Shown: one piece after another, positions 1,211 through 12,592 of the stretch
Layout: each line of letters opens with the position of its first letter
How positions within the stretch are numbered: position 1 is the first letter of the stretch
Assembly: GCA_030606215.1 (NCBI GenBank)
Contig: JAUWGW010000002.1
Span: forward strand, 1-64,000
Direction of reading: 5' to 3'
DNA from: a bacterium
GTDB lineage: Bacteria > NPL-UPA2 > JAUVJM01
DNA: 64,000 nt
Translations under genes and position numbers: made by a program
Notes under the pieces: generated by a model
Seen by the model: only the letters and a program-made list of their open reading frames with translations
What the model was told of the DNA's origin: nothing
Database searches by the model: none

Positions 1211-3589
1211 ATGTGTAACGAAGCGGATACCTGTAGAAAATATGTACTGCCTAAATTATATACAGCGGGCTGGACCGATGATCAAATATCAGAGCAGAAA
1301 TATTTTACCGATGGCCGCATAATAACTTTCGGTAAAGTCTGCAGAAGGAAGAAGCAAAAACGGGCGGATTATTTGTTGCGTTACAAGAGGGATTTTCCTA
1401 TAGCGATTATTGAGGCCAAGGCAAGTTACAAGAACGTTGGCGATGGGATGCAGCAGGCAAAAGAATACGCTGAAATTCTTGGTCTTAGATTTGCGTATTC
1501 AACAAACGGAACGAAATTTTTGGAGCACGATTATACGACAGGGTTTGAGCGAGAGCTTGATGATCTTCCTTCCCCGGATGACTTATGGCGCAGATACCGA
1601 AAATCAGAAAATATTGTTGAAGATGCGATTGCAGATAAACTTTTAACGCCGTATTTCTACAATCCGGATAAAGAGCCCCGATACTATCAGCAAATCGCAA
1701 TCAATAGAGCGGTGCAGTTCGCATTAGAGGGGCAAAAGCGCATTCTTATAACGATGGCTACGGGAACAGGAAAGACAGAAGTTGCCTTTCAGATAGCCTG
1801 GAAATTATGGAATGCCAAGTGGAATAAGAAACAAGATGGAAGGCGTCCGAGGATTTTATTCTTATCAGATAGGTCGTTTCTGGTTGATGATCCAAAAGAT
1901 AAGACATTCATCCCGTTTGGTGATGCCCGTCATAAAATCGAGGGAGAAGCTGTAAAAAGTCGCGAAATGTATTTTGCCTTATACCAAGCAGTGGCGCGTG
2001 ATGAACATCGTCCGGGACTTTATAAAGAATACGCGCGGGATTTTTTTGATCTTATTATTGTTGATGAGTGTCATCGTGGCAGCGCTTCTGATGAAAGTAA
2101 TTGGCGGGAGATTTTGGAGTACTTTGAACCTTCATATCAAATCGGGATGACAGCAACCCCTTTACGTGAGGACAATAAAGACACCTACAAATATTTCGGC
2201 AATCCGATCTATACCTATAGTTTAAAGCAAGGTATAGATGATGGATTTCTTGCGCCGTATAAAGTTTATCGTGTAATTACTGATGTTGATGCAGCTGGAT
2301 GGAGGCCGGAACGAGGGCAAACCGATCGTTATGGGCGGGAAATTCCTGATGGAGAATATGGCACAAAAGATTTTGGACGCACCTTAGCTCTTAGACCTCG
2401 CACGGAAGCTGTTGCGCAACATTTGACTGATTTTTTAAGAAAGACAGATAGACTGGCGAAAACAATAGTATTTTGCGAAGACCAAGAAGGAACGGAAGAA
2501 ATGAGGAAATTATTAGGCAATCTGAATGCCGACTTGGTTCAGCAATATCCTGACTATGTCGTTCGTATTGTATCTGATGAAGGCGTTGTCGGGCGCGGAC
2601 ATTTAAGCAGGTTTCAAGAACTTGAAACAGTAACTCCGGTTATTGTCACAACCAGCAGATTGTTGACAACGGGCGTCGACATTCAAATGTGTAAAAACAT
2701 CGTTTTATATAAAGTCGTGAATTCCATAACAGATTTTAAGCAAATCATTGGCCGTGGAACGCGGGTAAGAAGTGACTACGGAAAATTGTATTTCAATATT
2801 ATTGATTATACCGGGAGCGCAACACGAAATTTTGCTGATGAATCTTTTGATGGTGAACCGGCACTTCTTACTCAGGAAGAAATTGATTCGGCAGGAAAAA
2901 CAAAAGACGGTACAGAAGAAGTATTAACTCCGGAGGACACAGAAAAATATCAGGAGGCTGAGGAAACGCTGACCCCCGATGTTTCAATAAGTGATACGTA
3001 TGACTCAGCACACGAAAAGAGGAAATTCTATGTTGATGATGGTGAAAAAGTATCCATTGTTTATGATTACGAACAGCATTTAGATGTCGATGGGAACAGG
3101 TTGCGCGTGGTTAAGTATGCGGATTATACCGCTGAGAAAGTCCGCTCGATGTTCCCTTCCGCGGCAGCTTTGCTTTCTAAGTGGCAGAGCGCGGATGAGC
3201 GTTCAGCTATTATTGACACGTTACAGGATAAGGGAATCAATTTTGAAGAGCTTGTTAAGATAACAGGGCGTGAAGATACCGATCATTTTGACCTTCTTTG
3301 TCATGTTGCTTTTAATGCCCCTTTACGTTCGCGTAGAGAACGTGCTGAGCGTCTACGCAAGGGAAAGGTTGATTTCTTTGAATATTTTTCAGCAGAGGCA
3401 CGGCAGATTCTTAATGAAATTCTTGATAAATACATTGAATTTGGCACCGAACAGTTCAGGATACCGGATATTTTGCGTCTTGATCCGATTTGCCAGCATG
3501 GTAATGTCGTAGAAATAGCAAAGATTTTTAGCGGCCCTGAAAAACTGAAAGAATCGTTGGACGAGATGCAAAAGCTTTTATACGCATAA
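1211..3589 (+). CDS. hsdR: type I restriction enzyme R subunit (HsdR-like)
   Basis: This 792-residue protein joins an N-terminal PD-(D/E)xK nuclease domain (IAIIEAKA near residue 65) to a superfamily 2 helicase: Walker A ATGTGKT near 183, DECH near 285, MTATP near 313 and motif VI QIIGRGTR near 511. It would be the ATP-driven translocating and cleaving subunit of a type I system whose M and S genes are at 6822-9603. GGGGGA precedes ATG 1211. An IS element and abiE now separate R from M and S, so R depends on a different promoter. No frame break is seen. Confidence 0.93.
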   Translation: MCNEADTCRKYVLPKLYTAGWTDDQISEQKYFTDGRIITFGKVCRRKKQKRADYLLRYKRDFPIAIIEAKASYKNVGDGMQQAKEYAEILGLRFAYSTNGTKFLEHDYTTGFERELDDLPSPDDLWRRYRKSENIVEDAIADKLLTPYFYNPDKEPRYYQQIAINRAVQFALEGQKRILITMATGTGKTEVAFQIAWKLWNAKWNKKQDGRRPRILFLSDRSFLVDDPKDKTFIPFGDARHKIEGEAVKSREMYFALYQAVARDEHRPGLYKEYARDFFDLIIVDECHRGSASDESNWREILEYFEPSYQIGMTATPLREDNKDTYKYFGNPIYTYSLKQGIDDGFLAPYKVYRVITDVDAAGWRPERGQTDRYGREIPDGEYGTKDFGRTLALRPRTEAVAQHLTDFLRKTDRLAKTIVFCEDQEGTEEMRKLLGNLNADLVQQYPDYVVRIVSDEGVVGRGHLSRFQELETVTPVIVTTSRLLTTGVDIQMCKNIVLYKVVNSITDFKQIIGRGTRVRSDYGKLYFNIIDYTGSATRNFADESFDGEPALLTQEEIDSAGKTKDGTEEVLTPEDTEKYQEAEETLTPDVSISDTYDSAHEKRKFYVDDGEKVSIVYDYEQHLDVDGNRLRVVKYADYTAEKVRSMFPSAAALLSKWQSADERSAIIDTLQDKGINFEELVKITGREDTDHFDLLCHVAFNAPLRSRRERAERLRKGKVDFFEYFSAEARQILNEILDKYIEFGTEQFRIPDILRLDPICQHGNVVEIAKIFSGPEKLKESLDEMQKLLYA

Positions 3590-3590
3590 T

Positions 3591-3609
3591 TATTACAAAT
3601 AATGTAATA
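3591..3609 (+). promoter_or_regulatory. inverted repeat IR1, stranded AbiEi-type operator
   Basis: TATTAC-N7-GTAATA begins two bases after the hsdR stop. It has the same half-sites and the same 7-bp spacer as the repeat at 5287-5309 in front of abiEi. Joining the flanks of the IS puts the two repeats on either side of the abiE -35 region, so this is probably the distal operator, now moved about 1.6 kb away by the IS. AbiEi antitoxins are known to autoregulate by binding paired inverted repeats; use of these sites is inferred. Confidence 0.6.
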
Positions 3610-3616
3610 TTCGTGT
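3599..3616 (+). repeat. left target-site duplication of the IS
   Basis: ATAATGTAATATTCGTGT here is identical to 5243-5260. The two copies directly abut the IS ends, GT...AC. A long target duplication is a known property of the IS1202 group. Confidence 0.85.
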
Positions 3617-5242
3617 GTTGTAACTCCATGATAATGTCCCCTTGTAACTCTTTTAAAATGTCCCTTTTGACAAGTTATAATGTTCTCCAAAAAGGAGGGC
3701 ATTATGGGCAGAAAGGACATTATCATGATGAGTCCAGAAGAATTAAGGAGGGTAAGCGTAATAAATCAAGCTGTAAAGAAGTTGATAACACAGAAAGATA
3801 CTGCTGAGGTGATAGGGTTGTCATATAGACAAACTAAAAGGCTTGTAGCAAGGGTAAGGAAGGAAGGCGACACTGGGATTATACACAAGTCCAGAGGCAA
3901 GCCAGGGCACAGAAGGATTGACGATGAGATAAAAGCTAAAGCTGTGGAACTTTGCAATGAGACGTACTGGGATTTTGGTCCCACATTAGCGAGTGAGAAA
4001 CTTTATGAGCGAGATAATATTGAAGTTGACCATGAAACTCTCAGGCGTTGGCTTCTATCTACGGATAAAAGCAAATGGGAATGGCAGCGCAAGGCGAGGC
4101 CCCACAGACAATGGAGGCAGAGGAAAGATTATTTTGGTGAGATGGTGCAAATGGATGGCTCGCATCATGATTGGCTGGAGGGGAGAGGTCCCTGGTTGGT
4201 ACTTATGGGCTATGTAGACGATGCTACGGGCATTACCTTTGCAAGATTTTATGACTATGAGGGTACTATGCCTGCCATGGATAGTCTTTACCGTTACATT
4301 CTAAAATACGGCATCCCACAGAGCATCTATATTGACAGGCACACCACATACAAATCACCGAAGAGGCAGACGATAGAGGAGCAGTTGAGGAATGTGATTC
4401 CACTGACTCAGTTTGGAAGAGCAGCAAAGGAACTCGGGATAATCGTAATATACGCTAATTCGGCTCCGGCGAAGGGAAGAGTGGAACGTGGATTTGGGAC
4501 GCATCAGGATAGACTGGTAAAGGAGATGAGGTTAGCAGGGATAAAGACCGGGGATGAGGCAAATGAGTTTCTGGAATGGTATTTGCCCAAACACAACAGG
4601 AAGTTTAGTGTTTCTCCGGCAAAGAAGGCAGATTTACACAGGAAGTCTCCAGGAAAGAAAGAATTAAAGAAGATACTGTGTGTGCAGACGGAAAGGCATC
4701 TGCGTAAGGATGCGGTGATAGCGCATAACAAGAAATTTTACCAAGTAAAGGGTATTCCCAGCAGGAGAATAAGAACAGTCATGATAGAGGATAGATTAGA
4801 TGGTTCTATGCATGTAAGAAACAACGGCTCGTATTTCAAGTACAGGGAGATAGCTCCGGAGCTTATCAGAAGAGCAGAGACAACAAGAAAGATACGCAAC
4901 AGGGCAAGGAAGATTTACGTTCCTCCGAAGGATCATCCATGGAGACAATTCAAGTTAGTGAAATATACAGGTACTATGAATCGTGAATGAAGTCAGTATG
5001 CCTTGTGGAAATGCCATGATTGATGCTCCTGTGGAAAACCTGATGGACAGCAAAGCTGACCACAGATTTACCACATTCGCTTGGAAAAGTCTCCGACTTT
5101 CCCACAATCATTTGGATAAATGTTTCTCATTTATCCACATTCCCACAAGGCCGACTGCTACTAGTTTGATATTAAAAAAACAAAACCCCAAAAGGGACAT
5201 TTCTATTAAGTTAAAAAGGGGACATTTTAAACGAGTCTTGAC
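3617..5242 (+). mobile_element. IS1202-group (ISNCY) insertion sequence, 1626 bp
   Basis: The element is bounded by an 18-bp direct repeat and by matching ends, GTTGTAACTC on the left and GTCAAGACTC when the right end is read inward. Each end carries two AATGTCCC motifs about 23 bp apart, at 3633-3641 and 3657-3664 on the left and as GGGACATT twice at 5194-5226 on the right. It encodes one DDE transposase. The 4991-5190 tail holds no gene but has a GGAAAAGTC/GACTTTCC hairpin near 5083-5102. Identical target duplications and an intact transposase indicate a recent insertion. Confidence 0.9.
3704..4990 (+). CDS. IS1202-type (ISNCY family) DDE transposase
   Basis: This 428-residue transposase has an N-terminal helix-turn-helix region, with the family start MGRKDIIMMSPEELRR and ITQKDTAEVIGLSYRQTKR, followed by an RNase H-like catalytic core. 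The acidic triad fits D in QMDGSHHDW (about residue 150), D in IYIDRHTT (about 210) and E in GRVERGFGT (about 262). ATG 3704 is chosen because AAGGAGGG sits 5 bases upstream; an in-frame ATG at 3680 lacks such a site. The reading frame is intact, so the element may still be active. Confidence 0.92.
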   Translation: MGRKDIIMMSPEELRRVSVINQAVKKLITQKDTAEVIGLSYRQTKRLVARVRKEGDTGIIHKSRGKPGHRRIDDEIKAKAVELCNETYWDFGPTLASEKLYERDNIEVDHETLRRWLLSTDKSKWEWQRKARPHRQWRQRKDYFGEMVQMDGSHHDWLEGRGPWLVLMGYVDDATGITFARFYDYEGTMPAMDSLYRYILKYGIPQSIYIDRHTTYKSPKRQTIEEQLRNVIPLTQFGRAAKELGIIVIYANSAPAKGRVERGFGTHQDRLVKEMRLAGIKTGDEANEFLEWYLPKHNRKFSVSPAKKADLHRKSPGKKELKKILCVQTERHLRKDAVIAHNKKFYQVKGIPSRRIRTVMIEDRLDGSMHVRNNGSYFKYREIAPELIRRAETTRKIRNRARKIYVPPKDHPWRQFKLVKYTGTMNRE

Positions 5243-5260
5243 ATAATGTAATATTCGTGT
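5243..5260 (+). repeat. right target-site duplication of the IS
   Basis: This is an exact copy of 3599-3616. Its last T is also the first base of the abiE -35 hexamer TTGACA. It retains only the GTAATA half of repeat IR1, because the TATTAC half stayed on the left side of the IS. Confidence 0.85.
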
Positions 5261-5288
5261 TGACAGCCTACCCTGTATGTGGTATATT
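5260..5288 (+). promoter_or_regulatory. sigma70 promoter of abiEi-abiEii
   Basis: A perfect -35 TTGACA (5260-5265) is followed after exactly 17 bp by TATATT (5283-5288). Transcription would start near 5295, inside the inverted repeat at 5287-5309. This is the strongest promoter match in the window and would drive the toxin-antitoxin pair and possibly hsdM-hsdS. Confidence 0.8.
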
Positions 5289-5309
5289 TATTACACAAAA
5301 CGTAATAAA
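5287..5309 (+). promoter_or_regulatory. inverted repeat IR2, probable AbiEi operator
   Basis: TTTATTAC-N7-GTAATAAA is a perfect 8-bp inverted repeat overlapping the -10 and the predicted transcription start, ending just before the abiEi start codon. Position and symmetry fit an autorepressor site. It matches IR1 (3591-3609) in half-site and spacing. Confidence 0.65.
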
Positions 5310-5316
5310 TATGCAT

Positions 5317-5931
5317 ATGAAAAATATTGAAGATAAACGAAAAAATCTCTTCCAAATTGCTGCAAGCCAGCAAGGGCATTTTACAGCTAAACAGGCCCTT
5401 GTGTGTGGCTATTCCCATCGTACGCAATACTACCATAAAGAGAAAGGGCATTGGGCTGAAATTGATAGGGGGGTCTTTCGCCTGACTAATTACCCGGTTT
5501 CTCCAGACGAAGATCTTGTCAGGTGGTCGCTGTGGAGCAGAAATCGTGAGGATGTCCCTCAGGCTGTGATATCTCATGAGACAGCCCTCAGCGTTCATGA
5601 ACTTGGTGACGTTATGCCGGCTAAGACACATCTTACCGTGCCGCCCGCTTTCAGAAAGAAACCATCGGGTGGATGTGTTCTTCACAAGAAAATACTGTCC
5701 CCTGAAGATATAGAAAAGAGGGATGGTTTTATGGTCACGATCCCGCTTAGAACCATTGTTGATGTCGCCGAAGAAGGAATGAGTAATGAATATATTGAGC
5801 AGGCGCTGCGCGATGCTTTTAGTAAGGGGATTCTTGTGTCGGCTCATATTATTGAAACTCAGATGACATTAAAGGCAAAAGAGAAGCTAAGAATTATTTT
5901 AGAACAGATAAAGAAGAACCCAATGCTATGA
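5317..5931 (+). CDS. abiEi: AbiEi-type antitoxin / transcriptional regulator of type IV TA system
   Basis: This roughly 204-residue protein has an N-terminal winged-helix segment typical of the AbiEi_4 antitoxin domain (LFQIAASQQGHFTAKQAL...). A C-terminal domain follows, with VISHETALSVHELGDVMP and the IPLRTIVDVAEEG motif common to the family. It antagonises the AbiEii nucleotidyltransferase and represses its own operon. It overlaps abiEii by four bases (ATGA). ATG 5317 or 5311 are possible starts; no Shine-Dalgarno is visible, and the leader would be only about 20 nt. It is the first gene after the IS. Confidence 0.85.
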   Translation: MKNIEDKRKNLFQIAASQQGHFTAKQALVCGYSHRTQYYHKEKGHWAEIDRGVFRLTNYPVSPDEDLVRWSLWSRNREDVPQAVISHETALSVHELGDVMPAKTHLTVPPAFRKKPSGGCVLHKKILSPEDIEKRDGFMVTIPLRTIVDVAEEGMSNEYIEQALRDAFSKGILVSAHIIETQMTLKAKEKLRIILEQIKKNPML

Positions 5932-6806
5932 GCGAAAAACAAAAGAATAGAGTATATGATTCAGCCCAAAATTTTAGGCAGGCCTTAGAGGATAGAATCC
6001 GTAACATCTCATTAGCAGAAAATGTGCCCATCGACCGCCTGCGTAAACGCATTGCCTTTGACAGGTTGCTCGCCCGACTTTTTGAAGGTGAAGACAGAAA
6101 CCGTCCTCACTGGCTGCTTAAAGGCGGCTATGCCTTGGAAGTGCGTTTTTCTGATATCGCCAGAGCAACTAAAGACGTTGATATGGCTATACCGGTTATG
6201 CGTGGCCCATCGCCTGAAGCAGTGCATGAAATGCTACGATTGGCAGTTGGTAAAGACCCGGGAGATTGGTTTGAATTCATAATCGGCACAGTGACACAGG
6301 ATTTACATCTGCCCAACTATGGTGGTTGGCGTTATCCCGTTGAGGCACGTTTGGCGGGCAGAAGATTTGCTTCATTTCGTTTAGATGTAGCGGTAGGGGA
6401 TGCTGTTATTTCGCAACCTGAATGGCAAAAAGGTTCCGAGGTGTTAAGCTTCGCCGGTATTGATCCAGCAACTATTGCTTTATATCCAAAAACACAACAC
6501 TTTGCTGAAAAAATACATAGCTTTACGTACCCGCGCGACAAACGAGAGATGTCCAGGGTAAAGGACCTTGTAGACCTTGTGCTCTTAATCGAAAGTGCTT
6601 TACCGGACAGTTCTGAAGTGATGGCAGCTATTGAGGCAACATTTAAACGTCGCAGGACACATGATATTCCCACCTCACTTGAAACCCCACCGGACAATTG
6701 GCGTGATTCTTACGTTGAAATTGCCGAGGATTGCGGCGTGAAATGTAGGACCGTGGAGGATGCCTTTATTCTGGTATCAGAATACTGGAGAAATCTACAT
6801 AAGTAA
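5928..6806 (+). CDS. abiEii: AbiEii-type nucleotidyltransferase toxin
   Basis: This 292-residue protein carries the nucleotidyltransferase signature of the AbiEii/DUF1814 family: KGGYALEVRF near residue 66 followed by TKDVDMAI near 82-88, and a conserved KIHSFTYPRDK...RVKDLVDL region near 200. In the type IV AbiE system this enzyme arrests growth, by tRNA-directed nucleotidyl transfer in studied homologues, and gives abortive phage resistance. It is translationally coupled to abiEi and lies 15 bp before hsdM. No key motif is missing. Confidence 0.88.
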   Translation: MSEKQKNRVYDSAQNFRQALEDRIRNISLAENVPIDRLRKRIAFDRLLARLFEGEDRNRPHWLLKGGYALEVRFSDIARATKDVDMAIPVMRGPSPEAVHEMLRLAVGKDPGDWFEFIIGTVTQDLHLPNYGGWRYPVEARLAGRRFASFRLDVAVGDAVISQPEWQKGSEVLSFAGIDPATIALYPKTQHFAEKIHSFTYPRDKREMSRVKDLVDLVLLIESALPDSSEVMAAIEATFKRRRTHDIPTSLETPPDNWRDSYVEIAEDCGVKCRTVEDAFILVSEYWRNLHK

Positions 6807-6821
6807 GAAAGAGAGATAGTT

Positions 6822-8387
6822 ATGGCAAAAAAATTTAAGAAAAAGTTGCCGCAAACAACAGCCGCCAGCTTAAGCGCGATAATTAAGTCATGCCGTGACA
6901 TTATGCGCAAAGACAAAGGTCTTAACGGTGATGCTGACCGTCTTCCGATGTTGACGTGGATAATGTTTTTAAAATTTCTTGATGATATGGAAATAATGCG
7001 AGAAACTGAAAGCAAAATGAAGGGGAGAAAGTACATACGGCCGGTGAAACCGCCCTACCGCTGGCGCGATTGGGCAACAAAAGAGGATGGCATTACCGGC
7101 GAAGAACTAATTTCATTTATCAATAATCAGGAATGTGTCCGCCCGGATGGTACGCGGGGCACTGGGTTATTTCACTATTTGCGTTCTCTGGAAGGTTCAT
7201 CTGTCCGGGGTGACAGGCGATATGTTATTGCGACAGTATTTCGGGGGACAGCCAACCGGATGTTTAACGGATACCTCCTGCGGGATGTTATCAACAAAAT
7301 TAATCGAATTCATTTTACCTCAACCGAAGAGATTCACACACTTTCCCATATCTACGAAAGTATACTTAAGGAAATGAGAGACGCAGCTGGTGATTCTGGA
7401 GAATTCTATACCCCCCGGCCGGTTGTGCGCTTTATGGTGAAGGCGGTCAGTCCGAAACTTGGTGAAACCATACTTGATCCGGCCTGCGGTACGGGAGGAT
7501 TTTTAGTTGAGACACTTGAGCATATAAAGAAGCAATGTAAGACAGTTGACGATCATAAGCGCCTGCAAGAAGAGACAATCTTTGGAGGTGAAGCGAAATC
7601 CCTCCCGTATCTCTTGTGCCAGATGAACTTACTTTTGCATGGCCTTGATTCTCCAAATGTTGATTCGGGTAATTCCCTTAGACATTCATTGAAGGAAATC
7701 GGAGATAAAGACCGGGTGGATGTTGTCTTAACCAATCCTCCTTTTGGTGGAGAGGAAGAAAAAGGCATTCAGGGAAATTTCCCGCAAGACAAACAAACCG
7801 CGGAAACTGCGCTTTTGTTTTTACAGCTCATTATGCGAAGACTCAGGCGGCCCGGGCATCTGAGCAAAAAAGGAGGCCGTGCCGGCGTAATTGTGCCTAA
7901 TGGCACGCTTTTCGGTGATGGTGTCTGTGCGCGGATTAAAGAAGAACTATTAAAAGAATTCAATTTGCATACGATTGCACGTCTGCCTAATGGAGTATTT
8001 TCACCCTACACGCCGATACCAACAAATATTTTGTTTTTTGACCGTACCGGACCGACCAAAGAAATCTGGTTTTATGAACACCCGCTTCCTGAAGGAAGAA
8101 AGAATTACACCAAAACCAAGCCCATACAGTTTGAAGAATTTGCTCCTTGCCTTGAGTGGTGGAAGAAGCGTGAGGAAAATGACAGGGCATGGAAAATCAA
8201 AGTTGAGAATGTATTAAAATACGATGATAACGGAAATCTCGTAAGCGCGAATCTTGATATCAAAAATCCTAGCGCGCAGGACGTTTTTGAGCACATGCCT
8301 CCAGAAAAGCTGGTGGAGGATATTTTAGAGAAGGAAGAGAAAATGATTAAATCAATGAAGGAAATTTATAAGATGTTAGGGAAGTAA
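6822..8387 (+). CDS. hsdM: type I restriction-modification DNA methyltransferase subunit (HsdM)
   Basis: This 521-residue N6-adenine methyltransferase has an N-terminal HsdM helical domain, then the SAM-binding motif DPACGTGGF near residue 219 and the catalytic NPPFGG near 304. With HsdS it methylates the recognition sequence and with HsdR completes a restriction complex. AGAGAGATAG precedes ATG 6822. One base separates it from hsdS. The partner hsdR lies upstream beyond abiE and the IS, so the locus is a split type I operon with a toxin-antitoxin pair inside. Confidence 0.93.
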   Translation: MAKKFKKKLPQTTAASLSAIIKSCRDIMRKDKGLNGDADRLPMLTWIMFLKFLDDMEIMRETESKMKGRKYIRPVKPPYRWRDWATKEDGITGEELISFINNQECVRPDGTRGTGLFHYLRSLEGSSVRGDRRYVIATVFRGTANRMFNGYLLRDVINKINRIHFTSTEEIHTLSHIYESILKEMRDAAGDSGEFYTPRPVVRFMVKAVSPKLGETILDPACGTGGFLVETLEHIKKQCKTVDDHKRLQEETIFGGEAKSLPYLLCQMNLLLHGLDSPNVDSGNSLRHSLKEIGDKDRVDVVLTNPPFGGEEEKGIQGNFPQDKQTAETALLFLQLIMRRLRRPGHLSKKGGRAGVIVPNGTLFGDGVCARIKEELLKEFNLHTIARLPNGVFSPYTPIPTNILFFDRTGPTKEIWFYEHPLPEGRKNYTKTKPIQFEEFAPCLEWWKKREENDRAWKIKVENVLKYDDNGNLVSANLDIKNPSAQDVFEHMPPEKLVEDILEKEEKMIKSMKEIYKMLGK

Positions 8388-8388
8388 T

Positions 8389-9603
8389 ATGATCGACATT
8401 AAAAGTAAATACAAATTGGCTCGTTTTGATGAGTTCCTAAAAAGAATTGAGAGAAAAATAATTGTCGATGATATAGGAGAGTATTCATGTGTTGGAGTCA
8501 AGTGGTACGGTTTAGGTGCTTTTATTCGGGCGAAATTGCTCGGTATTGACATAGCAAGAAAGCAGCAGTGGGTGATAAAGAAAGGTGATGTTGTCTATAA
8601 TAAGCTATTTGCTTGGAAAGGTTCATTTGCTATCGCTGATGATAGTGTGCATGAATGTATAATCTCCGATAAATTTCCTACCTATTCGATTAATACAAAC
8701 ATTATTGACCCGAAATATCTGGGCTATTTCTTTAGAACCAATTTTATCTCTCAGCAAGCTGAATATTTGTCCAAGGGAGCAGCGGCGATTAGTAAATTAA
8801 CTTTAAATCCTCCTCAGTTTTGGGATTTAACAATCACTCTCCCGCCACTTCCTGAACAGCACCGGATTGTGGGGAAAATACAGAAACTATCGAAGCATAT
8901 TGAAGAAGCTAAAAAACTGAAAGAAACGAACAATAAAAAGATTCATTCTTTGCTTGACGCTGAATTACGAAAGATTGTTCGTAGAGCTAAAGAGAAAAAA
9001 GAATGGGAATTTGGACCTATTCCACAATATGCTGAGGTTAATCCGTCGAGAAAAGGCAAGATAGATTTATCCTCTGATTGTCCGGTTTCTTTTGTCCCGA
9101 TGTCAGCCGTTGATGGTATAACAGGTGTAATAAAAGAAAGGTATGTAAAAGAATACTATAGAGTTTCTAAGGGATACACTTGGTTTAAGGAAGGAGATGT
9201 AATCTTTGCAAGGATCACACCGTGTATGCAGAATGGCAAATCAGCAATCGCAATTAATTTGGAAAGTGGTCATGGTTTTGGTTCTACGGAGTTTCACGTC
9301 TTAAGACCAGGGCCTAAAATTATATCTGAATGGTTGCACCTGCTGGTAAGGAGTAAAGACTTCCGTCACGATGCTAGTTTGCTTTTTAAAGGTACCGCTG
9401 GACAACAAAGAGTACCTGCAAGTTTTCTTGAGCAAAAAACAATAGCAGTCCCGCCGATACCAGAGCAAAAAAGGCTTGTCGATCATTTGGAGAAAATTGC
9501 AGGGCAAGTTCAGAATCTAAGAACTATCAATGATAAGCTTGAGATTGAATTAAATGCTTTACTACCCTCAACTCTTGACAAAGCCTTTAAGGGGGAATTG
9601 TGA
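8389..9603 (+). CDS. hsdS: type I restriction-modification specificity subunit (HsdS)
   Basis: This 404-residue protein has two target-recognition domains (about residues 1-150 and 210-350), each ending in the conserved LPPLPEQHRIVGKI / VPPIPEQKRLVDHL linker and a helical spacer (IEEAKKLKETNNKK...; AGQVQNLRTINDKL). This is the normal HsdS architecture that sets the bipartite DNA target. It starts one base after the hsdM stop and is full length. Confidence 0.9.
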   Translation: MIDIKSKYKLARFDEFLKRIERKIIVDDIGEYSCVGVKWYGLGAFIRAKLLGIDIARKQQWVIKKGDVVYNKLFAWKGSFAIADDSVHECIISDKFPTYSINTNIIDPKYLGYFFRTNFISQQAEYLSKGAAAISKLTLNPPQFWDLTITLPPLPEQHRIVGKIQKLSKHIEEAKKLKETNNKKIHSLLDAELRKIVRRAKEKKEWEFGPIPQYAEVNPSRKGKIDLSSDCPVSFVPMSAVDGITGVIKERYVKEYYRVSKGYTWFKEGDVIFARITPCMQNGKSAIAINLESGHGFGSTEFHVLRPGPKIISEWLHLLVRSKDFRHDASLLFKGTAGQQRVPASFLEQKTIAVPPIPEQKRLVDHLEKIAGQVQNLRTINDKLEIELNALLPSTLDKAFKGEL

Positions 9604-9867: not shown

Positions 9868-10722
9868 ATGTTAAAAGCAAAAAGAAAAGCTATGGAGATG
9901 GAAGATGATAGAAAGTCTATGACCGGCGAAGCAATTGTTCTATTTCTTGATGTGTTAGGATACAAGGGCCTTGTCAAGAATGGCATCTACGACTCCAAAC
10001 TCGTTCAAGAACTTAAGGACTTATGGGTGGGAATTATTCGCTTATCGAAATATGAGAATCTCCCAGAAGGTGCCCCACATCGCGATTATATACACAAAGT
10101 TGTCCGAAGTGCGATGAGCGTGCGGTTCATCTCAGACACCTTCCTATTCAGCTTGAGATTATCTGACATAACGCCCGATTCTGATTTCAATGATAGTGAA
10201 AGTATTGCAGCTCATATCTGGGTTTATTTGTATTCCATCGCAATGTTTTGCCCTACTTTTATAGGTAAAACAGGGCTTATCATGAGAGGAGGTATTGCAA
10301 AAGGTCCACACTATGAGAAGGATATCGACAATAACATTTTCCTGTTCAGCAAGGCATATATTGACGCTTACGAGTTGCACGAAAGGAACCAACAACCGAG
10401 AATAGTTGCGGATGACAAGCTGATAGCATATTTGCGGGAGATACAATTCAATTATCTTGATGCGTTTTTCTACAAGGAGCATGATAATACCATATGTTTT
10501 GATTGGTATTTCTTTTTTGAGTTTGGCGATCCAAGAAGTAAGAAATTACTGAGAGATATTAAATCTGGTCTCATAACAAATATCAGAGCAAGTGTTGCTG
10601 ATGACAGCGCCAGAACTAAACTGAAATGTTTTGTCGAATACCACAATCGAAAAATGAGTGAGGCTGGGGAGGATTACAAGGAATTCACCATTGATACCGG
10701 TATTTTCGAGAAGGAAAGCTGA
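9868..10722 (+). CDS. class III nucleotidyl cyclase-like protein
   Basis: This 284-residue protein shows the sequence landmarks of a class III cyclase fold in order: FLDVLGYKGLV (first metal Asp, about residue 28), FISDTFLFSL (second Asp, about 91), MRGGIAKGPHYE (the RxGIxxG-like motif, about 142) and a following A-YELHER helix. Similar stand-alone cyclases make signalling nucleotides in Pycsar anti-phage systems. That this one is active or defensive is inference. It follows hsdS in a defence island and precedes two unrecognised genes that could be partners. No effector with TIR or transmembrane domain is visible next to it. Confidence 0.55.
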   Translation: MLKAKRKAMEMEDDRKSMTGEAIVLFLDVLGYKGLVKNGIYDSKLVQELKDLWVGIIRLSKYENLPEGAPHRDYIHKVVRSAMSVRFISDTFLFSLRLSDITPDSDFNDSESIAAHIWVYLYSIAMFCPTFIGKTGLIMRGGIAKGPHYEKDIDNNIFLFSKAYIDAYELHERNQQPRIVADDKLIAYLREIQFNYLDAFFYKEHDNTICFDWYFFFEFGDPRSKKLLRDIKSGLITNIRASVADDSARTKLKCFVEYHNRKMSEAGEDYKEFTIDTGIFEKES

Positions 10723-10736
10723 GAGGGTAAGCGAAA

Positions 10737-11306
10737 GTGAAAATGTGGCCGGAAGAGACTGAAGAATCTAAGAGCCTCCTCAGCCTTAAATTTGGTAGGA
10801 CACGCGAGGAGCTCTTGGGCAAGTACCACCGAAAAGCAGAGGAGAAGAAAGCCGAGATTCAGAAGAAGGGATACTCAGACTCCGGTCTTGCCCAAGCTCA
10901 GGTTAGACACATCTACATCGCCATGGCCCGAGAATTAGCGAAGGAGCGAGTTAAGATAATCCAGGAACTGTATGGCAATCCTCCGGATAAAGAAGGTATT
11001 GATTGGATTGTCGAAGATGTCAAAGCTTGGGTATATGGCCAGACGCATTCGTTGCACGAAAGTGCGCCAGGATCCAGTAAGAAGGCCATCAAGCAGGAGA
11101 TTCAGGAAAATGCAGACGCCATTGTGTCGAATAACAGGAGGGATCTCTTGATCGCCCTGCATGAGCGTAGGGCAGAAACTAAGAAGAGAAAATCAGAAAT
11201 CGTGACAGAGAGGGGAATGCCAATTCCCCCAAAACCGTGGCAGGAAATCAAGAAAGAGTACGACGTTAGTAAATTACAGTTTGGCAAGAAGATTTATTTC
11301 ATCTAG
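10737..11306 (+). CDS. hypothetical helical protein, 189 aa
   Basis: This is a charged, largely helical protein without membrane segments. Lys/Glu-rich helices span roughly residues 20-70, and a second helical block with NNRRDLLIALHERRAETKKR lies around 130-155. Start GTG 10737 has GAGAGGG nine bases upstream. It is 14 bp after the cyclase-like gene and overlaps the next frame by 26 bp, so the three look co-transcribed. I do not recognise the family. Confidence 0.6.
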   Translation: MKMWPEETEESKSLLSLKFGRTREELLGKYHRKAEEKKAEIQKKGYSDSGLAQAQVRHIYIAMARELAKERVKIIQELYGNPPDKEGIDWIVEDVKAWVYGQTHSLHESAPGSSKKAIKQEIQENADAIVSNNRRDLLIALHERRAETKKRKSEIVTERGMPIPPKPWQEIKKEYDVSKLQFGKKIYFI

Positions 11307-12016: not shown

Positions 12017-12592
12017 ATGAAAAACAGGAACGTTTATATAATAGCTGGGCCAAACGGTTCGGGAAAAACTACATTTGCAAGCAAATTTTTGCCAGATTAT
12101 GTCAAATGTCCCAATTTTGTGAATGCTGATCTTATTGCACAAGGTTTATCGCCCTTTTCACCTCGTAGTGCTGCGATAAAAGCGGGTAGACTCGTCTTAA
12201 GTCAAATACATGAATATATGAAAATGAACGTTGACTTTGCATTTGAATCGACACTTGCAGGAAAGCTATACATAAATCTTTTTAAGAAATTAAAAACAAG
12301 AGGATATAGACTTCATCTTTTCTTCTTGTGGATTCCGGATGCAGAACTCGCTATAGCACGTATTAAGGATAGAGTTGCAGAGGGTGGACACGATGTGCCG
12401 ATTCAAGATGTAAAACGCCGCTTTAAGCGTTCGACCTGTAATTTTTTAAAATTATACCAACCTTTAGTAGATTCCTGGATGTTGTTCAATAATGCTGGTT
12501 CCATACCAGCTCTAATTGCCAGGGGAAAGAATAATCATGTTTGTGTCATCAATCAGGAACTGTTTGATATAATAAAAGCATTAGCGAGGTAG
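12017..12592 (+). CDS. zeta toxin family / AAA-type kinase
   Basis: This 191-residue P-loop protein begins YIIAGPNGSGKTTFASKFLP (Walker A at residues 11-19), followed by FVNADLIAQGLSPF and FAFESTLAGKLY, the pattern of stand-alone zeta-toxin-like kinases. Classical zeta toxins phosphorylate UDP-N-acetylglucosamine; the substrate of this subfamily is not established. A 47-codon gene follows three bases later, as is usual for the partner of these kinases. The start follows from the promoter position. Confidence 0.8.
   Translation: MKNRNVYIIAGPNGSGKTTFASKFLPDYVKCPNFVNADLIAQGLSPFSPRSAAIKAGRLVLSQIHEYMKMNVDFAFESTLAGKLYINLFKKLKTRGYRLHLFFLWIPDAELAIARIKDRVAEGGHDVPIQDVKRRFKRSTCNFLKLYQPLVDSWMLFNNAGSIPALIARGKNNHVCVINQELFDIIKALAR

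Follow-up and report, generated by a model that had tools for sequence, protein, structure and literature searches.

Results

Genes and features of the hsdR-abiE-hsdMS locus

The window, by which we mean the whole stretch of 64,000 nucleotides that was analysed, carries a type I restriction locus and an abiE gene pair interrupted by an insertion sequence (IS). The order of genes and features is hsdR, distal palindrome, IS, promoter, proximal palindrome, abiEi, abiEii, hsdM and hsdS.

1211-3589, plus strand: hsdR, type I restriction subunit R, 792 aa, intact, upstream of the IS (NCBIfam restrict_EcoAI, 1013.8 bits; open reading frame)
3591-3609, no strand: distal palindrome TATTAC-AAATAAT-GTAATA, complete copy on the hsdR side, putative distal AbiEi operator (direct reading; pairs in IS-free relatives)
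3600-3615, no strand: left copy of the 16-bp target duplication TAATGTAATATTCGTG (exact repeat; the maximal exact repeat is 3599-3616)
3616-5243, plus strand: IS1202-family insertion sequence, 1628 bp, ends TGTTGTAACTC... and ...GAGTCTTGACA (direct reading, exact repeat, end comparison)
3704-4990, plus strand: transposase, 428 aa, ISNCY_2/IS1202 family, DDE, Q at E+7 (NCBIfam, alignment)
5244-5259, no strand: right copy of the target duplication, directly abutting the -35 box (exact repeat)
5248-5253, no strand: GTAATA half-site, sole remainder of the putative distal operator beside the promoter (direct reading)
5260-5265, plus strand: -35 box TTGACA of the predicted abiE promoter, probable target feature of the IS (promoter match; register common to other insertions)
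5283-5288, plus strand: -10 box TATATT, spacer 17, preceded by TG (promoter match)
5284-5312, no strand: proximal palindrome ATATTTATTAC-ACAAAAC-GTAATAAATAT, putative proximal AbiEi operator, intact (direct reading; equivalent in most AbiEi homologues)
5317-5931, plus strand: abiEi, antitoxin/repressor, 204 aa (Pfam AbiEi_4, 5.4e-7; PADLOC AbiEi, 4.5e-64)
5928-6806, plus strand: abiEii, nucleotidyltransferase toxin, 292 aa (Pfam AbiEii, 4.8e-26; PADLOC, 2.2e-86)
6822-8387, plus strand: hsdM, methyltransferase subunit, 521 aa (Pfam N6_Mtase, 1.4e-64)
8389-9603, plus strand: hsdS, specificity subunit, 404 aa (Pfam Methylase_S, 5.4e-18)

The wHTH antitoxin gene abiEi adjoins the toxin gene abiEii, the two open reading frames overlapping by 4 bp, and by gene content the pair is a predicted AbiE type IV toxin-antitoxin system of the phage-defence kind. 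A preliminary description of this DNA had proposed an abiE-hsdMS operon with hsdR upstream, and the Pfam, PADLOC and NCBIfam matches agree with it. Two open reading frames that follow hsdS (9868-10722 and 10737-11306) gave no Pfam or PADLOC match and are possible new members of the defence cluster; a third, also downstream of the hsd genes (12017-12592), has a weak match to Zeta_toxin/AAA_33 (Pfam, 4.6e-10) and is a possible further toxin-type gene of the same defence region.

The insertion sequence and its transposase

The transposase matched the NCBIfam model transpos_ISNCY_2 (2.2e-112; 375.9 bits, cut-off 250). In the alignment E261 and Q268 were invariant, so that Q, not K/R, stands seven residues past the catalytic E; the earlier assignment to the IS1202 type is supported by both results. 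The published analysis of the IS1202 family sorts its members by duplication length (Harmer et al. 2023, PMC10132070). In the long-duplication subgroup (IS1202, ISTde1, ISHahy13, ISShha1) the transposase has 394-507 aa and Q at the catalytic E+7, the ends are TGT/ACA, the duplication is 16-28 bp and the length is 1.3-1.75 kb in 18 of the 21 listed elements (PMC10132070). The element of the window has the transposase type and size, Q residue, ends and length of this subgroup, a duplication of at least 16 bp and, like its members, imperfect terminal inverted repeats (18/26 matches, small end shifts allowed).

The sequence ATAATGTAATATTCGTGT (3599-3616) is repeated exactly at 5243-5260, and had been described as an 18-bp target duplication bordering an IS at 3617-5242. 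The duplication is indeed exact; its length is revised, however, once the TGT...ACA ends of the family are applied, which gives IS bounds of 3616-5243 and a duplication of 16 bp. The 18 bp are the maximal repeat, the outer A and T being also part of the IS ends.

A structure model of the transposase, of low confidence (mean pLDDT 66.8), gave IstA and TnsB as best folds with TM values of 0.3-0.4. A comparison with TnsB is drawn by the family paper as well, the TnsB-like fold consisting of two HTH, an RNase H core and a beta barrel (PMC10132070).

The genome of the window contains a single intact copy of the exact IS. At a contig end of this genome, 38 residues are left of a related transposase (58% identity; L002, G000:C27:35039-35152). 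No close relatives of the transposase were found in IMG/VR. Searches by tblastn yielded plasmid matches of at most about 38.5% identity, mostly enterobacterial and probably outside the long-duplication subgroup, and phage matches of ~37% identity, mostly partial; neither set was used. An outward hybrid promoter starting from the TTGACA at the IS end (5238-5243) was considered for the window and discarded, as there is no -10 box at the right distance.

Paired palindromes flank the IS

The best promoter match of the region is TTGACA-17-TATATT (5260-5288), with 11 of 12 positions matching. The distal palindrome starts two bases past the end of hsdR (3589 to 3591). The proximal palindrome has the core TATTAC-ACAAAAC-GTAATA at 5289-5307, and its perfect arms reach 11 bp, ATATTTATTAC-N7-GTAATAAATAT. 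The preliminary description had reported repeats TATTAC-N7-GTAATA of equal geometry on both sides of the IS, which direct reading confirmed; the interval 5287-5309 given there for the proximal repeat corresponds to a version with 8-bp arms, the repeat being real and its perfect arms extending over 5284-5312.

The 1,524,482-base genome contains just three matches to TATTACN7GTAATA, so that the occurrence of two of them, separated by 1.7 kb, as flanks of one IS is not due to chance. The third occurrence (contig C26) appears, read by eye, to lie within coding sequence and looks like a chance match.

When the flanks were joined without the IS, the two palindromes stood 54 bp apart. In this reconstructed empty site 15.5 bp separate the distal centre from the start of the -35 box, and another 15.5 bp lie between the start of the -10 box and the proximal centre downstream of it, in line with the proposal that removal of the IS would bring both repeats beside the promoter. 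The same description had the insertion leave the promoter, the proximal site and half of the distal site together, and the GTAATA half-site does remain there; the half lost beside the promoter is replaced by the IS end GTCTTGAC and the full distal site remains near hsdR.

IS-free relatives keep the paired palindromes

The search for AbiEi homologues covered 84,980 species genomes, together with 294 genomes from the phylum to which one match belonged. None was found among 60 same-phylum relatives that could have provided a sister empty site, and empty-site comparisons were therefore drawn from other phyla. The closest IS-free locus (L022, from an Elusimicrobia MAG) encodes an AbiEi 61% identical to that of the window. 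It has the same gene order, with the end of hsdR just upstream and abiEii, hsdM and hsdS downstream, and its palindromes, TGTTAC-N7-GTAACA, are spaced exactly as in the reconstructed empty site, at 54 bp. The paired repeats that the preliminary description expected in genomes without the IS are thus kept. Pairs also occur in Melainabacteria (L024/L025) and in L027, L029 and L030, with spacings of 56, 57 and 62 bp, and a weaker pair, 68 bp apart, in L036. A strict 54-bp spacing was discarded as a conserved rule, the closest homologues giving 54, 54, 56, 56, 57, 57 and 62 bp (weaker: 68).

The -10 box starts 15.5 bp before the proximal centre in five of the six loci measured, and a protein bound there would therefore cover the -10 box and the transcription start. 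Many more distant AbiEi homologues have a proximal palindrome only. A near-identical palindrome, ATACCCTTAATAATTAAGGGTAT, was seen over the -10 box of AbiEi homologues in L042, L049, L050, L051, L054 and others, the putative proximal operator being conserved across the wider AbiEi family.

Both palindromes of the window are very probably, if not provenly, AbiEi operators. The assignment for this homologue is made by sequence comparison, and the pair could instead be read by another regulator. We regard this as improbable: the pairs sit at the abiE promoter in the Elusimicrobia and Melainabacteria relatives, and known AbiEi homologues autoregulate through such promoter repeats (PMC3985639, PMC7319586). 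Moreover, the arms vary from locus to locus, but within a locus those of the two sites are identical or mostly so, the pattern that a single regulator reading both sites would produce.

In Streptococcus agalactiae AbiEi and Mycobacterium tuberculosis Rv2827c, as here, repeats lie over the system's own promoter before the antitoxin gene (PMC3985639, PMC7319586), and Rv2827c also has two pairs of repeats (PMC7319586). The two 23-bp repeats of S. agalactiae together form a single palindrome, one arm each (PMC3985639), whereas here two full palindromes 54 bp apart bracket the -35 and -10 boxes.

The weakening of AbiEi repression suggested in the preliminary description would probably be modest, because the putative proximal operator over the -10 box and start is intact and many relatives have it alone. 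Repression would be expected to persist through it; in S. agalactiae, replacing one repeat did not abolish repression of the promoter (PMC3985639). It had also been proposed that hsdR is cut off from abiE-hsdMS. This is physically so, but abiE has its own predicted promoter in the window and in relatives, and lost read-through from hsdR therefore need not silence abiE-hsdMS.

Predicted promoters beside related insertions

Relatives of the window transposase (roughly 27-60% identity) were gathered from whole genomes, further copies were added by their location, the IS ends were set by the duplication or by alignment of copies, and the flanks were read outward. The sample comprised 61 insertions of long-duplication IS1202-type elements, belonging to 12 IS lineages in 11 genomes, with two genomes (G982 and G497) supplying 40 of the 61. 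Promoters were sigma70-like, predicted from sequence and scored as mismatches out of 12 to the Escherichia coli consensus.

One layout recurred: the IS end, a duplication of 15-18 bp, TTGACA or a near match, about 17 bp, and TATAAT or a near match, facing away from the IS. A predicted promoter with at most 3/12 mismatches started 15-19 bp from an IS end in 35 of the 61 insertions, against a mean of 2.0 in dinucleotide shuffles of the same flanks (maximum 6 in 200 shuffles). With at most 2 mismatches, 29 insertions were observed and 0.18 expected from the shuffles. The other 5-bp offset bins of the real flanks held 0-4 promoters each. For offsets of 13-19 bp, 38/61 insertions fitted, with at least one in each of the 12 lineages. 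Of the 23 insertions outside the cut-off at 13-19 bp, some may be off-target or have been rearranged since, and some may lie at promoters that depart from the E. coli consensus.

The same layout could arise if the transposase read only the hexamer TTGACA, which is similar to the end of its own IS (TGTCAA inverted), and promoters were struck incidentally. All 35 of the best sites contain the TTG of the hexamer, and most of these elements have one end at which TTGACA reads outward. However, TTGAC[AT] adjoining insertions had a good -10 box at 16-18 bp in 20 of 27 cases, compared with 9 of 156 for hexamers at other positions of these loci (Fisher p = 2.4e-14). Several insertions, moreover, adjoin a poor -35 box paired with an excellent -10 box (TTGCTT/TATAAT, TTGTAA/TATAAT, TTGCAA/TATAAT). 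Because a -10 box accompanies the adjacent hexamers and also these poor -35 boxes, the targeting cue appears to be the promoter and not the hexamer alone; we consider recognition of the bare hexamer unlikely.

The orientation of the elements varied: the promoter was always at the right end of the IS in G497, and either end could face it in G982 and G582. In G582, three of the four copies of one IS (L120, L121, L123) directly precede sequences that read as tRNA genes. They recall the Ty1/Ty3 retrotransposons, which sit at tRNA genes in yeast.

In one case (L147, G982:C1:1491300-1494700, right flank) the IS has inserted directly next to the right end of a second copy, and 18 bp separate the terminal TTGACA of this neighbouring copy from a TATAAT. 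The outward -35 box carried by IS right ends could form hybrid promoters.

Three copies of a 1327-bp IS with a 17-bp duplication were found in G871. TTGACA follows the duplication directly in all three; the -10 match is perfect only in L111, weaker in L129 (TAGACT), and L107 scored better on the other side. As ISTde1 has a published length of 1327 bp and a duplication of 17 bp (PMC10132070), we infer from the equal values that this IS is ISTde1.

Discussion

The most economical account of the locus, which we hold to be highly probable, is that the transposase of a long-duplication IS1202-family element chooses sigma70-type promoters as its targets and for this reason inserted the element just upstream of that of abiE, and that the split operator follows from this choice. 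The transposase would locate promoters through the RNA polymerase holoenzyme or through the promoter DNA itself. In a staggered cut, one nick would fall immediately before the -35 box and the second about 16 bp upstream of the first, a geometry that would leave the IS 16 bp from the -35 box and let the promoter survive. In the hsdR-abiE-hsdMS operon the putative distal AbiEi operator occupies the same 16-bp zone. The insertion would thus have doubled half of this operator beside the promoter and moved the full copy 1.6 kb away. Operator splitting may be seen as a by-product, because the distal operator lies just upstream of the -35 box. AbiEi would bind both palindromes, autorepression now continuing mainly via the proximal operator. 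Because the element has a single intact copy in its genome, its own preference is deduced from that of its relatives.

Since the duplication abuts the -35 box, as in most relatives of the element, the IS appears to have been neither randomly placed nor drawn to operators. Attraction of the IS by the operator palindrome, or by AbiEi bound to it, would parallel the attraction of short-duplication cousins to XerC-bound dif sites: the duplication does overlap the distal palindrome, and ISAjo2-type elements insert beside dif-like palindromes (PMC10132070). The feature that recurs at a fixed distance in the targets of the relatives is nevertheless the promoter, and we give operator attraction very little credence. 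Intergenic insertions are generally tolerated, but random insertion followed by selection for gene-sparing copies would mimic a preference for promoter gaps without fixing the distance, which in the flanks is concentrated in a single bin (35 at 15-19 bp, against 0-4 in the others), and is hardly credible.

Promoter selection by the transposase has a precedent. TnGBS, ISLre2 and some ISKra4-group elements insert 15-17 bp upstream of the -35 box of sigmaA promoters (Guerillot et al. 2014, PMC3942029), and contact with the RNA polymerase initiation complex was proposed for these elements by the authors (PMC3942029). The distance from the vegetative -35 box is shared by the elements described here (16 bp for the window IS; 15-19 bp for 35 of the 61 relatives), and in both groups the orientation is constant for some elements and variable for others. 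In contrast, TnGBS, ISLre2 and ISKra4 have a Mutator-superfamily transposase and duplications of 8-9 bp, and the elements here an ISNCY/TnsB-like transposase and duplications of 15-18 bp. Because transposase family and duplication length differ, the elements here seem to share this targeting while belonging to a separate lineage.

Within the IS1202 family, the ISAjo2-type elements have a related transposase, a strict site choice and a proposed contact with a DNA-bound host protein, XerC (PMC10132070); they produce 3-5 bp duplications at dif/pdif sites, and the elements described here insert at predicted promoters instead. For the long-duplication members no target was found in the family paper (PMC10132070), whereas our analysis points to a predicted sigma70-type promoter. 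Among the open papers searched, none described an IS1202-family element that targets promoters. Long-duplication IS1202 transposases may dock on the promoter-bound holoenzyme, through sigma region 4 or the alpha C-terminal domain; this would be a bacterial counterpart of Ty3 targeting, independent of TnGBS/ISLre2 and converging on 15-17 bp. We see the arguments for and against such docking as evenly balanced.

The predicted vegetative-promoter register offers a concrete and testable answer to the missing target of the long-duplication IS1202 members (PMC10132070). If true, promoter targeting with equal spacing would exist in at least two unrelated DDE transposase lineages, which would point to a shared physical cue at promoters, and it would predict where such elements leave genes expressible yet remove upstream control. 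For AbiE systems, a distal operator just upstream of the -35 box would be open to loss by such insertions, and the insertion in the window may serve as a natural experiment on the weight of the distal operator.
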